DNA from: Geothrix oryzae
GTDB lineage: Bacteria > Acidobacteriota > Holophagae > Holophagales > Holophagaceae
Direction: 5' to 3'
DNA length: 64,000 nucleotides
Assembly (NCBI RefSeq): GCF_030295385.1
Contig: NZ_AP027079.1
Coordinates: forward strand, 2,666,001-2,730,000
Below the pieces are notes generated by a model. That model did not search any database and was not told the origin of the DNA. It was given only the letters and a program-made list of their open reading frames with translations. How positions within the stretch are numbered: the stretch's first letter is position 1; every line of letters begins with the position of its first letter. Below are positions 31,225-38,810 of the stretch, piece after piece. The translations under genes were made by a program, and so were the position numbers.

Positions 31225-31389
31225 GGACGACCGCCTCCCCTTCCGAACCGCCTTCCTGCGATGGGCCGCGGCATGCGGCGCCATCCGGCTCCTCTGTTTC
31301 AAGATAGACTGATCTCCTAACCCCGCTCCCTGCTCATTCATCAGTCAAGGCCCAGCCACCATTCAAAGCGAACGACGGAGGGTTCTGTT

Positions 31390-34300
31390 TTGCGCCTCAA
31401 ATTCCGGCCTGCCCCATCCAGACTCGCCCCGCTCGCGCTTTTAGGCCTGACCCTCGCCGGCAGCGCCTGGGGAACGGTACCGAGGGACTCCAGCGAGAGA
31501 CGGATCCTGTCCATCCAGCAGGATCGCGATGAATCGACGCACACCCGCTTCCTTCGGACCCATCAGGGTCTCCGCGTGTGGGGCGGCGACGGCATCATCC
31601 ACACCCGGACCAAGGGTGGGGATTACCTCATCACCGATCCGACGCCCGGTGAGATTCTCCTCAACACGAGCCCCAGCCTGACGGCATCGGAAGCCCTCTG
31701 GATCGTGTCGGCGGACCTGAATGCCACGGGCCCCTTCGCCAAAGAGCCGAAGGTCGAGCTGGTCATCCTGCCCCAAGTGGAACGCTTCCATCGAACGACC
31801 GGCTTGCCGGTCCGGGCGGGTGATCCTCTCAATGCCGTAGAGATCGTGGAGAAGCCCACCGGATACCGGCTGGCCTATTTCGTCGAAGCCGCCTTCAGCA
31901 ACAGCCAGGCTGGCGCGGTCTCCGCCGGTTACCTGGTGGATGCCCATGGCGGATCCATCCTGCGCAAATGGAACGCCCTGGAGAGCGCCCTCGGGACCGG
32001 GAACTCCCAGTACAACGGGACCGTCGCCCTATCTACCGCCGCAGGAGGCCCGGGCTTCGAACTGAGGGACCTCGGCCGGGCAGGCAATGCGACTCTGGAC
32101 CTGGGGCACAGCTGGGACATGGCCTCTGCGGGGAACCTCTACGCGGATGCGGACAATGTCTGGGGAGATGGCCTCCAGTACGCCCTCGGCGCTCCGACGA
32201 ATTCCACCAACGGGCAGACGGCCGCCGTGGATGCGCATTTCGGCACTCAAGTGACCTGGGATTTCTATCAGCAGGTCCTGGGACGGAATGGGATCGACGG
32301 GAAAGGGACGCCCACCCGGGCCCGCGTTCACTTCGGAAATCAGTACGACAATGCCTTCTGGTGGGACGAGTGCTTCTGCCTCACCTTCGGAGACGGGAAC
32401 AAGTTCCTGACCCTGACCGCGCTGGATGTGGTCGGCCACGAGTTCAGCCACGGCGTCACCTCGACCACGGCCAACCTCGTGTACATGGGGGAATCCGGAT
32501 CCCTGAACGAAGCAACCTCCGACATCCTCGGAACCATGGTCGAGTTCTACGCCCGGGGCGCCGGGGGCACTGGCGCGGTCCTGCCGGATACGGGTGGGAA
32601 CTGGACCATCGGCGAGCAGATGAAGACCCCTGCCTTCGATCATCCGTTGCGGTACATGTACAAACCGAGCCTCGATGGCCTGAGCCCGGATGCCTGGTCG
32701 ACGAGTCTCCTCAACCTGGATGTCCATTACGGCAGCGGCCCCATGAACCGCTGTTTCTACTTTCTTGCCCAAGGGGCTTCTTCCGACTCTGCTTCGACGG
32801 CCTTCTCCTCGTATCTTCCAGCGGGCATGACGGGGATCGGCAACGACCGGGCCACCCGGATCTGGTACCGGGCCCTGGCCACCTACCTCACCTCCTCGAG
32901 CAACTACCTGCATGCACGCATGGCCGCGCTTCGATCCGCCATCGATCTCTACGGCGCAGGCTCCCTGGAGCATCAGGCCGTCCGGAACGCTTTCGCCGCC
33001 ATCAATGTCGGATACGCCTCGGGCCTCGGCGATGACCTGACCCCTCCAACCGTTTCAGGTTCGGTGAGCGGCTCCACGGGAATGATCGTTCTCGGCGTTC
33101 ACGCCCAGGACAACACGGGGGTGGGCAACCTGGCCTTCTATGTGGATCAGCAGAGGATCGAAACCGGGAATGGGGGCGGCCAGACCGATGTGACCCTGAA
33201 CCTGCCTTTCGATTCCCAAAAAATCCCGAAGGGCAGCCATGTCCTGACCGTGGTGGCCACCGACTCGGTGGGGAACACCACCCGTTCGGCGGAAGTCCCC
33301 TTCTCCACCTCGAACGCCTTCTACGAACTGCTGCTTCAAGGCGGTTTCGAATACGGCAGCGTCTGGGACGGCGGCATCGACAAGCACAACATGGCCTGGG
33401 TGGATCCCCAGGGCATCATCACGGGCGATTGGCCCGGCACGGCCTATCTCGGACGGTGGTGTGCGGCCTTTTGCGGCCTGGGCGATGCCAATACCCAGTC
33501 CATCCATCAGACCATCTCCATCCCCGCCGAGGCCCAGAGCGCCATCCTGACTTTCTGGCTGCAGGTCTTCTCTCAAGAACGGGATGGCCTGGTCAGAGAC
33601 ACCTTCCAGGTTCAGGTCCGATCCGCCGCCGGTGAGTTGATCGAAACCCTGGCGACCTACTCCAACCTGGACCGCAGCCTGATCCCCATTGCCATCCCTG
33701 CTCAAAAAGACTACTTCCAGCGATCCCTCGACCTGTCCGCCTACCGGGGCAAGACCATCCAGCTCTGGTTCGAAGGGAAGGAAGACGCAGCACACCCCAC
33801 ACCTTCCTTCCCCCACGGCGCGGAAACGCCCGTTGCGGCAAAAGCCCCCTTGGCACTCTCATGGCCAGCGAAGGAACGGCCCCAGGCGATGGCGTCCATC
33901 GAGCGCGCTGCTGGTGGCGCCTACACCTCCGGTGTCGGGCTGACAGAATTCCTGCTGGACAATGTTTCACTCCGGATCGGGGAGGTCGTGGACGCAGAGC
34001 CCCCCGCCGTCAACGCCCGCGGCGTTCCGGGTATTTTTGGAACCCTCAGCCTCACGGCCGATGTCAGCGACAACCTCGCCATCGCCCGGGTCGATTTCGT
34101 GATCGATGGTCAGGTGGTGGGAACGGCCGCTCACGGCCCCCATGCAATCCTCTTCGATTCCCGGATTCTCTCCGATGGCCCCCACACGCTCTCAGTGAAC
34201 GCTTACGACCTGGCTGGCAACAAAGGCACCTCGCCCGCCATCAGCTTTCAGACAGACAACACCTTTAGTCAGCTGTTGAACAACCCCAGCTTCGATTTCG

Positions 34301-35961
34301 GGGAATCCGGGTGGACCTTCGCCAACTGGGGCATCCTCTTTTTGTCATCGATCTACGACCCACAGGTGGTCACCATGGTGGCCAATGGGGGTGGCACTTC
34401 CCCTTCGTTGGCGACGCTTTCCCAGCGCGTCACCATCCCCGCGGAGGCCTATTCGGCCAAGCTCAAGTTCAGCTATGGGATGCAGTCCCTCTCCAATCCC
34501 CCGGATGATGCCCTGAAAGTCCAGGTCTGGGGTCTCGATGGCTCGCTGAAAGAGACCCTGGCCTCGTTCGCCCCACCAGGCACGGACTCCTTCTATGGGA
34601 ACGCAGAGGTGGATCTGAAGGGCTATCGCGGCCAGGAAGTGGTCGTGGCCCTCGTCGTCAATTCGCTCTATCTGCCGCCAAGCGGAGGGATCAAGGGCCT
34701 GGTCATCAACCTGGACAGGGTCGACCTGATCGTCCAGACCGCCCTCCCTCCCACCATCCGGACTCAACCCTTGAGCCAGTCTGCGTCGGTGGGCGCCCCG
34801 GGCACCTTCTCCGTCGATGTTTCGGGCACTTCCCCCCTCACCTATCAGTGGAGGAAAGACGGCTCCGACATGCCCGGCGCCACCAGCCGAACACTCACCC
34901 TCGCGGCCGTCCGTGAGGTGGATGCGGGGAGCTACGACGTCAGGGTCAGCAACGGCCTTGGCGCCGTCACCAGTTCAGCCGCCCTGTTGACGGTGACCCC
35001 CGCTCCTCTCGTCGCCCCGACCATCACGGCCCAGCCCCAAAGCCAGTCCGTGACCACCGGGACTCCCCTCACCCTCGGCGTATCCGCCACGGGATCGGCC
35101 CCGCTCACCTACCAGTGGCGGAAGGATGGCTCGGACATCGCCGGCGCCACCAGCCCCGTGTTCACGATCGCGTCCGCCCAGACGACGGATGCAGGCAACT
35201 ACCAGGTCCGGGTCGCCAACGGGGCGGGCAGCGTCTTGAGCTCCGTCGCCGCCGTGACCGTGACTGCAACCATGGTTGCTCCAGCCATCACGACCCAACC
35301 CCAAAGCCAGTCCGTGAAGACCGGAGCCCTCATCACGCTCAGCGTATCCGCCACGGGATCGGACCCGCTCACCTACCAGTGGCGGAAGGATGGCTCGGAC
35401 ATCGCTGGCGCCACCAGTTCTGTGCTCACGATCGCGTCCGCCCAGACGACGGATGCAGGCAACTACCAGGTCCGGGTCGCCAACGGGGCGGGCAGCGTCC
35501 TGAGTTCCGTTGCCGCCGTGACCGTGAATGCAACCCTGGTCGCCCCGGCCATCACGGCTCAGCCCCAAAGCCAGTCAGCCGCGCCCGGGAGCGCCGTCAC
35601 CTTCAGCGTGACGGCCTCGGGTTCCACGCCCTTGTCCTATCAATGGCGCAAGAACGACACGGACATCTCCGGCGCGACGGCCCCGAGCTACACCTTCACG
35701 ACCAACCAAGCAGACCACGGCGCCCGATTATCCGTTCGGGTCACGAATGGAGCCGGGAGCGCCATCAGCGACTACGCCACATTGACGCTGTCCCCCAAGA
35801 GTCGCGACCTGAATGGGGACGGCATCGTGAATGTGCTCGATCTCGCCTTTCTCATGCGGGCCTATGCGCCCGGAGTCCCCGCCGCGACCTCGCCCATGGA
35901 TCTGAACGGGGATGGGTTCGTGGATGATGTCGACCTTGCCCTCCTGATCGCCGCGTTGTAG
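31390..35961 (+). CDS. dockerin-bearing thermolysin-like (M4) metalloprotease
   Basis: 1523-aa secreted protease starting at TTG 31390 behind GGAGGG; signal peptide LALLGLTLAGSAWG. After an FTP-type propeptide (LRTHQGLRVWGGDGIIH) comes an M4 catalytic domain: zinc motif HEFSH at 350-354, third zinc ligand Glu374 (H-to-E distance 24, as in thermolysin), and the His of LNLDVHYGSG. Then beta-rich Ig-like and CBM-like domains (residues about 560-1115), four tandem Ig-like repeats (about 1118-1470) and a C-terminal dockerin with two Ca-binding loops, DLNGDGIVNVLD and DLNGDGFVDDVD (1472-1523). Dockerins normally bind cohesins on a scaffold or cell surface. The next gene, 8 bp downstream, is a lipoprotein. 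Confidence 0.92.
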   Translation: MRLKFRPAPSRLAPLALLGLTLAGSAWGTVPRDSSERRILSIQQDRDESTHTRFLRTHQGLRVWGGDGIIHTRTKGGDYLITDPTPGEILLNTSPSLTASEALWIVSADLNATGPFAKEPKVELVILPQVERFHRTTGLPVRAGDPLNAVEIVEKPTGYRLAYFVEAAFSNSQAGAVSAGYLVDAHGGSILRKWNALESALGTGNSQYNGTVALSTAAGGPGFELRDLGRAGNATLDLGHSWDMASAGNLYADADNVWGDGLQYALGAPTNSTNGQTAAVDAHFGTQVTWDFYQQVLGRNGIDGKGTPTRARVHFGNQYDNAFWWDECFCLTFGDGNKFLTLTALDVVGHEFSHGVTSTTANLVYMGESGSLNEATSDILGTMVEFYARGAGGTGAVLPDTGGNWTIGEQMKTPAFDHPLRYMYKPSLDGLSPDAWSTSLLNLDVHYGSGPMNRCFYFLAQGASSDSASTAFSSYLPAGMTGIGNDRATRIWYRALATYLTSSSNYLHARMAALRSAIDLYGAGSLEHQAVRNAFAAINVGYASGLGDDLTPPTVSGSVSGSTGMIVLGVHAQDNTGVGNLAFYVDQQRIETGNGGGQTDVTLNLPFDSQKIPKGSHVLTVVATDSVGNTTRSAEVPFSTSNAFYELLLQGGFEYGSVWDGGIDKHNMAWVDPQGIITGDWPGTAYLGRWCAAFCGLGDANTQSIHQTISIPAEAQSAILTFWLQVFSQERDGLVRDTFQVQVRSAAGELIETLATYSNLDRSLIPIAIPAQKDYFQRSLDLSAYRGKTIQLWFEGKEDAAHPTPSFPHGAETPVAAKAPLALSWPAKERPQAMASIERAAGGAYTSGVGLTEFLLDNVSLRIGEVVDAEPPAVNARGVPGIFGTLSLTADVSDNLAIARVDFVIDGQVVGTAAHGPHAILFDSRILSDGPHTLSVNAYDLAGNKGTSPAISFQTDNTFSQLLNNPSFDFGESGWTFANWGILFLSSIYDPQVVTMVANGGGTSPSLATLSQRVTIPAEAYSAKLKFSYGMQSLSNPPDDALKVQVWGLDGSLKETLASFAPPGTDSFYGNAEVDLKGYRGQEVVVALVVNSLYLPPSGGIKGLVINLDRVDLIVQTALPPTIRTQPLSQSASVGAPGTFSVDVSGTSPLTYQWRKDGSDMPGATSRTLTLAAVREVDAGSYDVRVSNGLGAVTSSAALLTVTPAPLVAPTITAQPQSQSVTTGTPLTLGVSATGSAPLTYQWRKDGSDIAGATSPVFTIASAQTTDAGNYQVRVANGAGSVLSSVAAVTVTATMVAPAITTQPQSQSVKTGALITLSVSATGSDPLTYQWRKDGSDIAGATSSVLTIASAQTTDAGNYQVRVANGAGSVLSSVAAVTVNATLVAPAITAQPQSQSAAPGSAVTFSVTASGSTPLSYQWRKNDTDISGATAPSYTFTTNQADHGARLSVRVTNGAGSAISDYATLTLSPKSRDLNGDGIVNVLDLAFLMRAYAPGVPAATSPMDLNGDGFVDDVDLALLIAAL
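34774..35781 (+). repeat. 264-bp tandem repeats encoding four Ig-like domains
   Basis: Within the protease gene the phrase around AGCCAGTC recurs at 34774, 35041, 35305 and 35569, giving spacings of 267, 264 and 264 bp. The middle two units are near-identical at DNA level over about 240 bp, including silent positions, implying recent duplication or gene conversion. Each encodes an Ig-like domain of about 88 aa (LTYQWRKDGSDIAGATS..NYQVRVANGAGS). Copy number could vary between strains by slippage. Confidence 0.9.
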
Positions 35962-35969
35962 GAAACCCC

Positions 35970-36563
35970 ATGAACCGGACTCGACTCCACCCAGGAATGT
36001 GTGCGTGTGCGCTCTTGATAACCCTCGCCTGCGGAGGGGGCGGAGGAGGCGGTGGGACATCCACGTCTCCCACCACCCCGCCCGCCTCGCCCTGGGCCAG
36101 TGCGCTGGTCTATGCCAATCCACCCTCGGGCAACGGGTTCCGATTCGTGGCGAACCAGGCCCTTTCCACCCCCACGCGGCTCGTACTGGACCTCGTCGGA
36201 CCGGCGGCCCAAAGCGGTCAAGGCCTGAGCTTCATCCTCAAAACGGACGCGTCGAAGGTCACCTGGGTCGCACCCTCCACGACTTCCGGGCTGGTACAGA
36301 ATGTCGCATTCAACCTCCTTCCTGGACCTCAGGCCCTTGTGGGGCTGGATAAAGGGGGCGGCAGCCTTCACGGCGCGGTCTACCAGAATTCGGGAAGCAT
36401 CCCCCTTGGCCAACCGCTCGTCCGCGTCTGCCTTTCCCTGAACGCAGGCGCCGTGGGCGCGGGGGTGCCGGTCCCTCTCACCCTCTCTGCGGGGAACAGC
36501 CTGTCGAATGGCGGCGTGATCGCGCCCATCGACCTCGCCTTCGGATCCCTGACCGCCAAATGA
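35970..36563 (+). CDS. Gly-linker surface lipoprotein, possible cohesin-like partner
   Basis: 197-aa lipoprotein: signal peptide with LLITLAC lipobox and a Gly8 stretch, then Ser/Thr/Pro linker, then a single beta-rich domain of about 140 residues (TRLVLDLVGPAAQSGQGLSFILKTDASKVTWV..PVPLTLSAGNSLSNGGV). Cohesin and cohesin-like domains show the pattern of an extended strand followed by a helix-free beta barrel of this size, but I cannot confirm homology by eye. It follows the dockerin protease by 8 bp, clearly an operon. Terminated by the perfect hairpin at 36564-36600. Confidence 0.6.
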   Translation: MNRTRLHPGMCACALLITLACGGGGGGGGTSTSPTTPPASPWASALVYANPPSGNGFRFVANQALSTPTRLVLDLVGPAAQSGQGLSFILKTDASKVTWVAPSTTSGLVQNVAFNLLPGPQALVGLDKGGGSLHGAVYQNSGSIPLGQPLVRVCLSLNAGAVGAGVPVPLTLSAGNSLSNGGVIAPIDLAFGSLTAK

Positions 36564-36600
36564 CCAAGAAAGGGGCCGGCTGCGCCGGCCCCTTTCTTGG
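36564..36600. terminator. perfect 17-bp bidirectional terminator hairpin
   Basis: CCAAGAAAGGGGCCGGC, loop TGC, GCCGGCCCCTTTCTTGG: a perfect 17-bp stem between the convergent lipoprotein and nrfA genes. On the plus strand it is followed by TTTCC; on the minus strand by TCATTTGG. It begins directly after the lipoprotein stop. Confidence 0.8.
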
Positions 36601-36619: not shown

Positions 36620-38110
36620 CTACTTCTTGGCCACCTTCGCCACGCCCAAGTCGCGCAGGGCGATCTGGCCCTGCCGGCCGAAGTCGATGGCCTCGCCGAG
36701 GATGCGGGCGGCTTCCTGGGGGGCGTGGAAGCCCATGGAGTTTTCGGCATTCACGAAGTCCACGCGCCACTGGGCCTTGCGCTGGAGCTCATAGATGGGC
36801 TTCAGCTTGGCCTCGTCCACGCCGGCCTTCTTGGCAGCGTCGATGTTGTTGATGAGGTCCACCACGGCGTCCTCGGCCCGGTCCATGAGAGCCTTCGTGC
36901 GGTCCTGGATGGTCGTCACGCGGGCCTTCAGTTCCGCTTCGGGGAAGCGGTGGCAGGTCTGGCAGGCCCTGGAGATGTTGAGCAGGGGGCTGCGCACCTG
37001 GTGGTCACTGATCTTGAGGGCGCCTTCGCGCTGGTAGGGCATGTGGCAGTCCGCGCAGGACACGCCGGAGCGGGCATGGACGCCCTGGCTCCACATCTCG
37101 AACTCGGGGTGCTGGGCCTTCAGGACCTCCGCGCCGGTCTTGCCGTGCTTCCAGTCGAAGAAGCGGGCGCCATCGGGGAACTTGTAGTCGTTGTAGGTCG
37201 CCTCGATCTGCTCGACCTTCAGGCCTTTGTTCCAGGGGAAGAACAGCGTGACCTTGGGCCCGCAGTAGTACTCCACATGGCACTGGCCGCAGACCATGGA
37301 GCGCATCTCCTGGCGGGAGGCGTCACGGTTGGCGTCGTAGGCCACGGCCTTGTCGCCCTTGCGCCACTTCTCGATGGAGGGCAGGTGCGGCACGGGCTCG
37401 CTGCTCTTGGCCAGGGCGTCGATGCCGCGGATGAAGCCGGGCTTGGTGACGCGGAGGGCCATGTTCTTGGGATCGTGGCAGTCGATGCAGGCCACGGGGT
37501 GCTTCACGAGCTGGCTGGCCTCGGCGTAGGGCATCTTGCAGATGGCCTCGAAGCCGGCCATGAGCTGGGCCTGGGCGTTCGGGCTGGTGAAGGCCTCGTC
37601 CAGGGTGCCGGGGGCGCCGCCCTTCAGGCCGACTTCGCGGAAGGCCACAGTGTTGGAGGCATGGCAGTGGAGGCAGGCGCCGGGCTGCTTGCGCTCGGTG
37701 ACGCGCTTGGTCTTGCGCTGGTCATCCAGCATGTAGGCGTGGCCCTGGCGCTGGTTGAAGTCGATGGCGAAGGCGTAGCCGTCGAAGATCGTCACCAGCC
37801 GGGGGTCTTCCTGGATGCGGCTCTTGGGCAGACCCTCGCTGCCGGCCCCGCCGTACTTGGTGCTGTACTTCTCTGCGGTGCGCTGGTAGGCGTCGAACTG
37901 GCGGGGGAAGTTCTTCCCCCACACAGCCGGATCAACGGTCTTTTCGTCGAGGTCCACCAGCTTGAAGCTGGTCTGTTTCGCCTCGGCCTTGCGGTTGGTG
38001 ATGCTGGCGTACAGCGACATCACCAGCACGGTGGCCAGGGCCGCGCCGGCGGCGATGAGGCCCATCCGGACCACCGGACGGGAGAACAGCGGAGTAGGGT
38101 TGTCGGTCAT
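36620..38110 (-). CDS. nrfA: cytochrome c nitrite reductase (ammonia-forming), pentaheme
   Basis: 496-aa periplasmic enzyme reducing nitrite to ammonium with six electrons (DNRA). Five heme motifs: CLHCH 146-150, CIDCH 208-212, CGQCH 274-278, CADCH 352-356, CQTCH 383-387. Active-site family positions are kept: CGQCHVEYY (Tyr), KAQHPEFEMW (Ca-ligand Lys/Gln and active-site His). The first, active-site heme normally carries CxxCK; here it is CxxCH, as in a minority clade. Start ATG 38110 has GGAGG 9 bp upstream; N-terminal signal/TM helix MGLIAAGAALATVLVM. 84 bp downstream of nrfH. Confidence 0.95.
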   Translation of the reverse strand: MTDNPTPLFSRPVVRMGLIAAGAALATVLVMSLYASITNRKAEAKQTSFKLVDLDEKTVDPAVWGKNFPRQFDAYQRTAEKYSTKYGGAGSEGLPKSRIQEDPRLVTIFDGYAFAIDFNQRQGHAYMLDDQRKTKRVTERKQPGACLHCHASNTVAFREVGLKGGAPGTLDEAFTSPNAQAQLMAGFEAICKMPYAEASQLVKHPVACIDCHDPKNMALRVTKPGFIRGIDALAKSSEPVPHLPSIEKWRKGDKAVAYDANRDASRQEMRSMVCGQCHVEYYCGPKVTLFFPWNKGLKVEQIEATYNDYKFPDGARFFDWKHGKTGAEVLKAQHPEFEMWSQGVHARSGVSCADCHMPYQREGALKISDHQVRSPLLNISRACQTCHRFPEAELKARVTTIQDRTKALMDRAEDAVVDLINNIDAAKKAGVDEAKLKPIYELQRKAQWRVDFVNAENSMGFHAPQEAARILGEAIDFGRQGQIALRDLGVAKVAKK

Positions 38111-38194
38111 CGGGGAGGTCCTCCCGCGTGGGGTTCCACGCGCCAAAGATGGGATCAGGGGTTGAAGATCAAGGCTTGGTGAGTCGTCCGGATA

Positions 38195-38692
38195 TCAGCG
38201 CGTCGGCCCATGGCCCACCTCCTGGTGGCAGCGCACGCACCCGTAGAGGTCGGCCTTCTGCGTCGGGTCCGAGGGCACGCCGAGGGTGCCGTGGGCGGTG
38301 ATCTCGCCCACCAGCTCGCCATGGCAGCGCAGGCAGTTGTCCTCCAGCACCTGGGCGTTGGAGGGCTTGATGCGGATGGGTTCGGGGAAATTCAGCAGGG
38401 TGAAGGCCTTCGAGTGGTGATAGCCGTTGCTGGCCTTCACGAAAAGCTTGTTCACGGGGTTGTCGTGGGGCAGGTGGCAGTCGTTGCACACGGCCACGGC
38501 GTGGTGGGACCCGTGGCGCCAGCCGTCGTACTCCTCGCGCATGATGTGGCAGTTCACGCACACGGAGGGGTCGTTCGACAGGTACGAAGTGCCGTGGGCC
38601 GAGACGAAGGTGTAGGCCCCGGACCCCAGGAACACGCCGGCGAAGACGCTGGCAAGGATGCTCAACAAGAACAGGCGACGCTTTCCGCTCAC
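38195..38692 (-). CDS. nrfH: NrfH-type tetraheme quinol dehydrogenase
   Basis: 165-aa membrane-anchored NapC/NirT-family cytochrome that takes electrons from menaquinol to NrfA. One TM (LFLLSILASVFAGVFLGSGA) then four hemes: CVNCHIM 45-51 with the NrfH-specific Met ligand, CNDCH 69-73, CLRCH 120-124, CVRCH 152-156. The GTG at 38692 gives a basic cytoplasmic N-terminus before the TM; a TTG at 38749 would extend it by 19 residues into likely promoter sequence. A minus-strand TTGACA-like hexamer lies at 38760-38765. Operon nrfHA. Confidence 0.93.
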   Translation of the reverse strand: MSGKRRLFLLSILASVFAGVFLGSGAYTFVSAHGTSYLSNDPSVCVNCHIMREEYDGWRHGSHHAVAVCNDCHLPHDNPVNKLFVKASNGYHHSKAFTLLNFPEPIRIKPSNAQVLEDNCLRCHGELVGEITAHGTLGVPSDPTQKADLYGCVRCHQEVGHGPTR

Positions 38693-38810
38693 AGGGTGTC
38701 CATCCGAGTGTGCAGGGTTCCGGCCTCGCACCGGAACAGGATGAAACAAAAAACGGACCTGTCAATCCGATATCAAAAAAAGTTCCTCCATCGAACCCCG
38801 GGCCCACGAA

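Follow-up and report, generated by a model that had tools for sequence, protein, structure and literature searches.

The DNA analyzed here (the window) is a stretch of 64,000 nucleotides from Geothrix oryzae (Holophagaceae, Acidobacteriota), whose genome consists of one contig of 3.27 Mb with a completeness rated at 100%. On its forward strand, a gene for a secreted metalloprotease is followed by a gene for a small lipoprotein. The features of this two-gene unit, in window positions, are as follows.

31377-31382, + strand: Shine-Dalgarno sequence GGAGGG of the protease gene, 7 bp 5′ of the TTG start (sequence)
31390-35961, + strand: secreted M4 (thermolysin-family) metalloprotease with a C-terminal dockerin, 1523 aa (open reading frame; Pfam)
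31390-31473, + strand: Sec signal peptide, aa 1-28, LALLGLTLAGSAWG (read from the translation)
31501-31617, + strand: FTP propeptide motif, aa 38-76 (Pfam PF07504, E 4.7e-7)
31993-33009, + strand: M4 catalytic domains, aa 202-540 (Pfam PF01447, Peptidase_M4, and PF02868, M4_C)
33010-35784, + strand: spacer of Big_7/choice-of-anchor-like beta domains and about four Ig-like repeats (Pfam, NCBIfam)
35806-35958, + strand: type I dockerin, aa 1473-1523, at the extreme C-terminus (Pfam PF00404, Dockerin_1)
35960-35963, + strand: AGGA, a Shine-Dalgarno-like site overlapping the protease stop codon (sequence)
35970-36563, + strand: lipoprotein gene, 197 aa, with type II signal peptide, Cys21, Gly/Pro-rich linker and predicted cohesin-fold domain (sequence)
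36090-36560, + strand: predicted cohesin-fold domain, aa 41-197, one all-beta domain (AF2, Foldseek, VIA-align)
36564-36600, + strand: perfect inverted repeat of 17 bp with a 3-nt loop, directly 3′ of the lipoprotein stop codon (sequence; a scan caught part of it)

The protease stop codon ends at 35961 and the lipoprotein ATG lies at 35970, leaving the 8-bp gap to a small lipoprotein with one beta domain that an earlier note on this DNA had reported. The AGGA site over the stop codon suggests that translation of the lipoprotein gene is coupled to that of the protease gene. Judged from its sequence, the 17-bp hairpin would form a terminator-like end of the two-gene unit, facing a convergent gene (36620-38146, − strand). 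This gene and the next one (38195-38749, − strand) make up a convergent multihaem cytochrome pair that resembles the NrfA/NrfH nitrite reductase, the names being taken from translated CxxCH motifs alone.

The protease contains all the elements by which an M4 metallopeptidase is recognized, namely HEXXH, the downstream Glu ligand, the catalytic His and the M4 N and C domains, and a motif search located the complete set of active-site motifs (HEFSH at aa 350, NEATSD at aa 373 and HYGSG at aa 446). The last Ig-like repeats of the spacer occupy aa 1209-1291, 1298-1375 and 1384-1462 (Pfam, NCBIfam) and are followed by the dockerin, which takes up the last 51 residues and scores 36.8 bits against a PF00404 cut-off of 22.9. 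A type I dockerin was defined as a module of about 60 aa with two duplicated Ca-binding loops, each with ligands at positions 1, 3, 5, 9 and 12. The protease C-terminus is such a module and both of its loops are complete (DLNGDGIVNVLD and DLNGDGFVDDVD), in agreement with the earlier description of an M4 protease ending in a complete two-loop dockerin.

In the lipoprotein, the lipobox ITLA-C21 (Cys21 codon, 36030-36032) fits the usual pattern by eye, and its Cys is conserved among the homologues, for example in LLACGGGG. The +2 residue is Gly, not Asp. Neither the single lipoprotein sequence nor a profile built on it gave anything useful in searches of Pfam, NCBIfam and PDB sequences, and a scan of genome contigs with the single protein as query found no relative. 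Comparison by hhalign of the lipoprotein family with one Pfam-recognized acidobacterial cohesin was not significant. The earlier note had left a cohesin identity unproven and had pointed to structure prediction as the way to assess it. To model residues 41-197 with AF2, we aligned the window protein with 36 natural homologues taken from genome contigs; the resulting model was all beta (pLDDT 92.4, pTM 0.88). When the model was compared with the whole PDB by Foldseek, the best 17 rows were cohesins or cohesin-like modules of C. perfringens (best E 3.4e-5). After rescoring of the PDB matches by VIA-align, cohesins alone filled ranks 1 to 47 (Z 12.2 to 9.3 over 120-138 residues), the first non-cohesin fold appearing at Z 8.9. 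We took a nine-strand jelly-roll as the mark of the cohesin fold and counted a match to Pfam PF00963 (Cohesin) as a separate criterion. The lipoprotein shows the cohesin fold in a model, not in a solved structure, and we assign the domain to this fold with high confidence; the proposed cohesin-like identity is thereby supported. PF00963 matched none of 15 members of the lipoprotein family, nor anything in the window genome. Because this profile finds no match, we call the lipoprotein a cohesin-fold protein and not a PF00963 member.

Pfam detected exactly two dockerins in the window genome, and the lipoprotein family has exactly two members there, each adjoining one of the dockerin genes. In the second pair (G000:C1:499803-503599, corresponding to L041 6804-10600, − strand), a Vps10/BNR-propeller protein of 1059 aa ends in a dockerin and is followed by a 206-aa family lipoprotein, the two genes overlapping by 4 bp. 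The earlier note had proposed a genome search for further dockerins and cohesins and had feared that cohesins might be absent. This fear does not hold, because Pfam misses the lipoprotein family: the search revealed two divergent cohesin-fold lipoproteins beside the two dockerins. A scaffoldin carrying several cohesins, which was taken as the mark of a cellulosome, was not found in the window genome, where both cohesin-fold lipoproteins carry a single domain.

The same arrangement recurs among relatives. Among the matches listed, a lipoprotein family member lies downstream on the same strand at 44 of 48 Holophagaceae dockerins, and at 33 of these 44 the gap between the two genes is 11-89 bp. 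One of the four unpaired dockerins sits at a contig end and the other three lie away from contig ends with no partner. A narrower alignment search, carried out without reference to dockerins but in many of the same genomes as the dockerin set, yielded 40 lipoprotein loci, and at 34 of them the gene just upstream encodes a C-terminal dockerin. At five of the remaining six, all from deeper relatives, the upstream protein has a D-x-D-x-D-type motif at its end, its second loop being decayed, and hhalign matched these degenerate ends to true dockerins (90% probability, E 1.5e-6). Only one of the 40 loci has no dockerin-like neighbor; here the family lipoprotein (L062 7854-8471, + strand) lies directly behind a SpoIIE-type phosphatase gene. 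None of the 40 loci showed a natural dockerin-lipoprotein fusion. When 396 Acidobacteriota genomes were searched with a profile, the family turned up in 40 genomes, 37 of them Holophagaceae. Of the Holophagaceae genomes among the relatives searched, only two have a Pfam cohesin. This supports the proposal that a dockerin-bearing protease has its own lipoprotein outside any cellulosome: the lipoprotein follows nearly every Holophagaceae dockerin gene, whatever the passenger.

Since each of the two genes has only one or two copies per genome of several thousand genes, we infer that the adjacency is not due to chance, and simple coincidence of the dockerin and lipoprotein genes was rejected on the adjacency counts. 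Whichever passenger is present (M4 protease, Vps10/BNR propeller or P-domain), the dockerin and the lipoprotein occur side by side, which makes the dockerin the probable shared partner of the lipoprotein. For high-affinity binding of a dockerin, a further mark of cohesins, this conserved arrangement is indirect support only. One could still suppose that these are mere neighboring surface-protein genes and that the beta-sandwich fold has nothing to do with the dockerin, considering that the lipoprotein has no sequence-level match to known cohesins and that beta-sandwiches are common among exported proteins. We regard this as very improbable, since cohesins top the matches among all solved beta-sandwiches and the adjacency holds at 44 of 48 dockerins and at 34 to 39 of 40 lipoprotein loci, across different passengers. 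The distances between paired dockerins and those between their cohesin-fold domains are also correlated (Mantel r 0.68, 0 of 5000 permutations), which is weak evidence and no proof of contact because linked inheritance also yields co-divergence.

Four of the five loci with degenerate dockerin-like ends were scanned (L068, L072, L079 and L081), and in each the upstream protein is an M4 protease. They come from Proteobacterial- or Acidobacteria-labeled MAGs, in which the one-loop dockerin-like end is followed by a distant lipoprotein family member; L072 carries two tandem protease-lipoprotein units. AF2 gave the degenerate end of L081 a two-helix layout as in a dockerin, at low confidence (pLDDT 57). 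These MAGs may be mis-binned. Among 300 genomes from the order to which the L081 genome belongs, no further family member was found; therefore the proteobacterial-labeled loci are rare or mis-binned. Occurrence of the M4 pairing in distant MAGs with degenerate dockerins would speak for a lipoprotein that acts as an inhibitor or a foldase of the M4 enzyme, its cohesin-like sandwich not recognizing the dockerin. Such a role is disfavored and appears improbable, because homologues are paired to the same extent with Vps10/BNR propeller proteins lacking a protease domain. Moreover, the dockerin is the part common to all partners, and the M4 gene already encodes its own FTP propeptide.

Cohesins and dockerins also occur in other families of the phylum. 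At L082 (G136:C273, 1480-3300, − strand), a GspD-like secretin (Secretin, E 2.5e-38) ends in a Pfam cohesin, and many other Pfam cohesin matches in the phylum sit in frames of about 750-900 aa that may be of the same secretin-cohesin type. A cohesin-ended secretin could serve as a dock for secreted dockerin proteins. Three genomes from other Acidobacteriota families (G106, G131 and G143) encode 19 to 40 dockerins each; G143 has two Pfam cohesin matches, and G106 and G131 are absent among the genomes with a match. All three are candidates for further cohesins missed by Pfam.

Taken together, we consider it likely that the window encodes a dedicated, non-cellulosomal cohesin-dockerin pair that tethers the protease to its own lipid-anchored receptor, a reading in which the cohesin fold is predicted and both binding and surface location are inferred. 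The M4 protease, whose extreme C-terminus is a Ca-dependent dockerin, would be exported with its N-terminal propeptide. The lipoprotein, expressed together with it, would be fixed in a membrane through lipidated Cys21; its flexible Gly/Pro linker would hold out one cohesin-fold domain, into which the dockerin would plug in a calcium-dependent manner. In this way the protease would be held non-covalently at the cell envelope and would not diffuse away, the presumed benefit being its closeness to the cell. In effect, a lipoprotein would be split into two pieces; each exported protein would have one receptor, and no scaffoldin would be involved. The pair would be specific and would be located at the outer membrane or the cell surface, and type II secretion, for which the window genome has two secretins, is a plausible transenvelope route.

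The main rival to a permanent anchor is a transient export partner: the cohesin-fold lipoprotein would bind the dockerin only briefly, serving in the periplasm or at the outer membrane as a chaperone or secretion adaptor, which passes the protein on to the type II secretion system. The passengers are indeed exported proteins, and both the two secretins of the window genome and the cohesin-ended GspD-like secretin described above would fit such a function. Nevertheless, cohesins usually bind dockerins very tightly, as befits an anchor more than a hand-off, and a general secretion adaptor would not need a private partner for each passenger; we therefore hold this possibility to be unlikely. Returning to the tether, we lean towards extending it to the Holophagaceae as a whole, where each dockerin-bearing exported protein would have a private, translationally coupled, lipid-anchored cohesin that Pfam does not know. 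The family would practice a split form of lipoprotein-based enzyme display in a diderm cell, and the M4 protease pairs of the proteobacterial-labeled and other MAGs, in which the dockerin keeps only one Ca loop, would be a deeper branch of this system.

The ‘orphan’ dockerins of one bacterial family become matched pairs with a testable partner. The lipoprotein family also illustrates that cohesins can wholly escape sequence profiles, and the tally of genomes that bear dockerins and lack cohesins is probably inflated. For protein display in Gram-negative cells, small, naturally paired and lipid-anchored cohesin-dockerin couples are now on offer.

Like the type I pairs of clostridial cellulosomes (C. 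thermocellum 1ohz, A. cellulolyticus 5nrm), the Geothrix pair combines an enzyme whose C-terminus is a duplicated F-hand Ca-binding dockerin with a partner predicted to have the same fold. By contrast with the cellulosomes, it has no multi-cohesin scaffoldin and no cellulase passengers were seen; instead, each dockerin has a single cohesin, which is encoded alongside it in one operon, carries a lipid anchor in a diderm cell and has a sequence outside PF00963. The cohesin-like X82 modules and FIVAR-dockerin of C. perfringens (2jh2, 2vo8, 2w1n; 2jnk/2ozn) are likewise non-cellulosomal. These modules were among the best fold matches of the lipoprotein, and 2jnk was the third-best PDB match of the dockerin profile, but they are domains of large secreted glycosidases, whereas the Geothrix cohesin is a small stand-alone lipoprotein. 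In the planctosome proposed for freshwater Planctomycetes, cohesin-dockerin modules are hypothesized to tether peptidases at the cell surface (PMC6461901). That system involves large anchoring and adaptor proteins with recognizable cohesins, whereas the Geothrix system consists of no more than two genes, one of which encodes a divergent cohesin lipoprotein. Cohesins and dockerins of ANME-partner bacteria are also non-cellulosomal and have been proposed to act in adhesion within methane-oxidizing consortia (PMC10553843). Archaeal and ANME-partner modules resemble the Geothrix pair in being used outside cellulose degradation, and Archaeoglobus 2xdh was a fold match of the lipoprotein model (VIA-align Z 9.7). 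However, those modules were annotated by domain searches, while the Geothrix family goes unnoticed by Pfam and came to light from gene adjacency combined with structure. We found no description of such a system in the openly accessible literature on dockerins with Geothrix or M4 peptidases. What is new here is a cohesin-fold family external to Pfam, a near-strict one-to-one operon layout, a lipid-anchored single cohesin in a diderm, and the conservation of this arrangement across a bacterial family.
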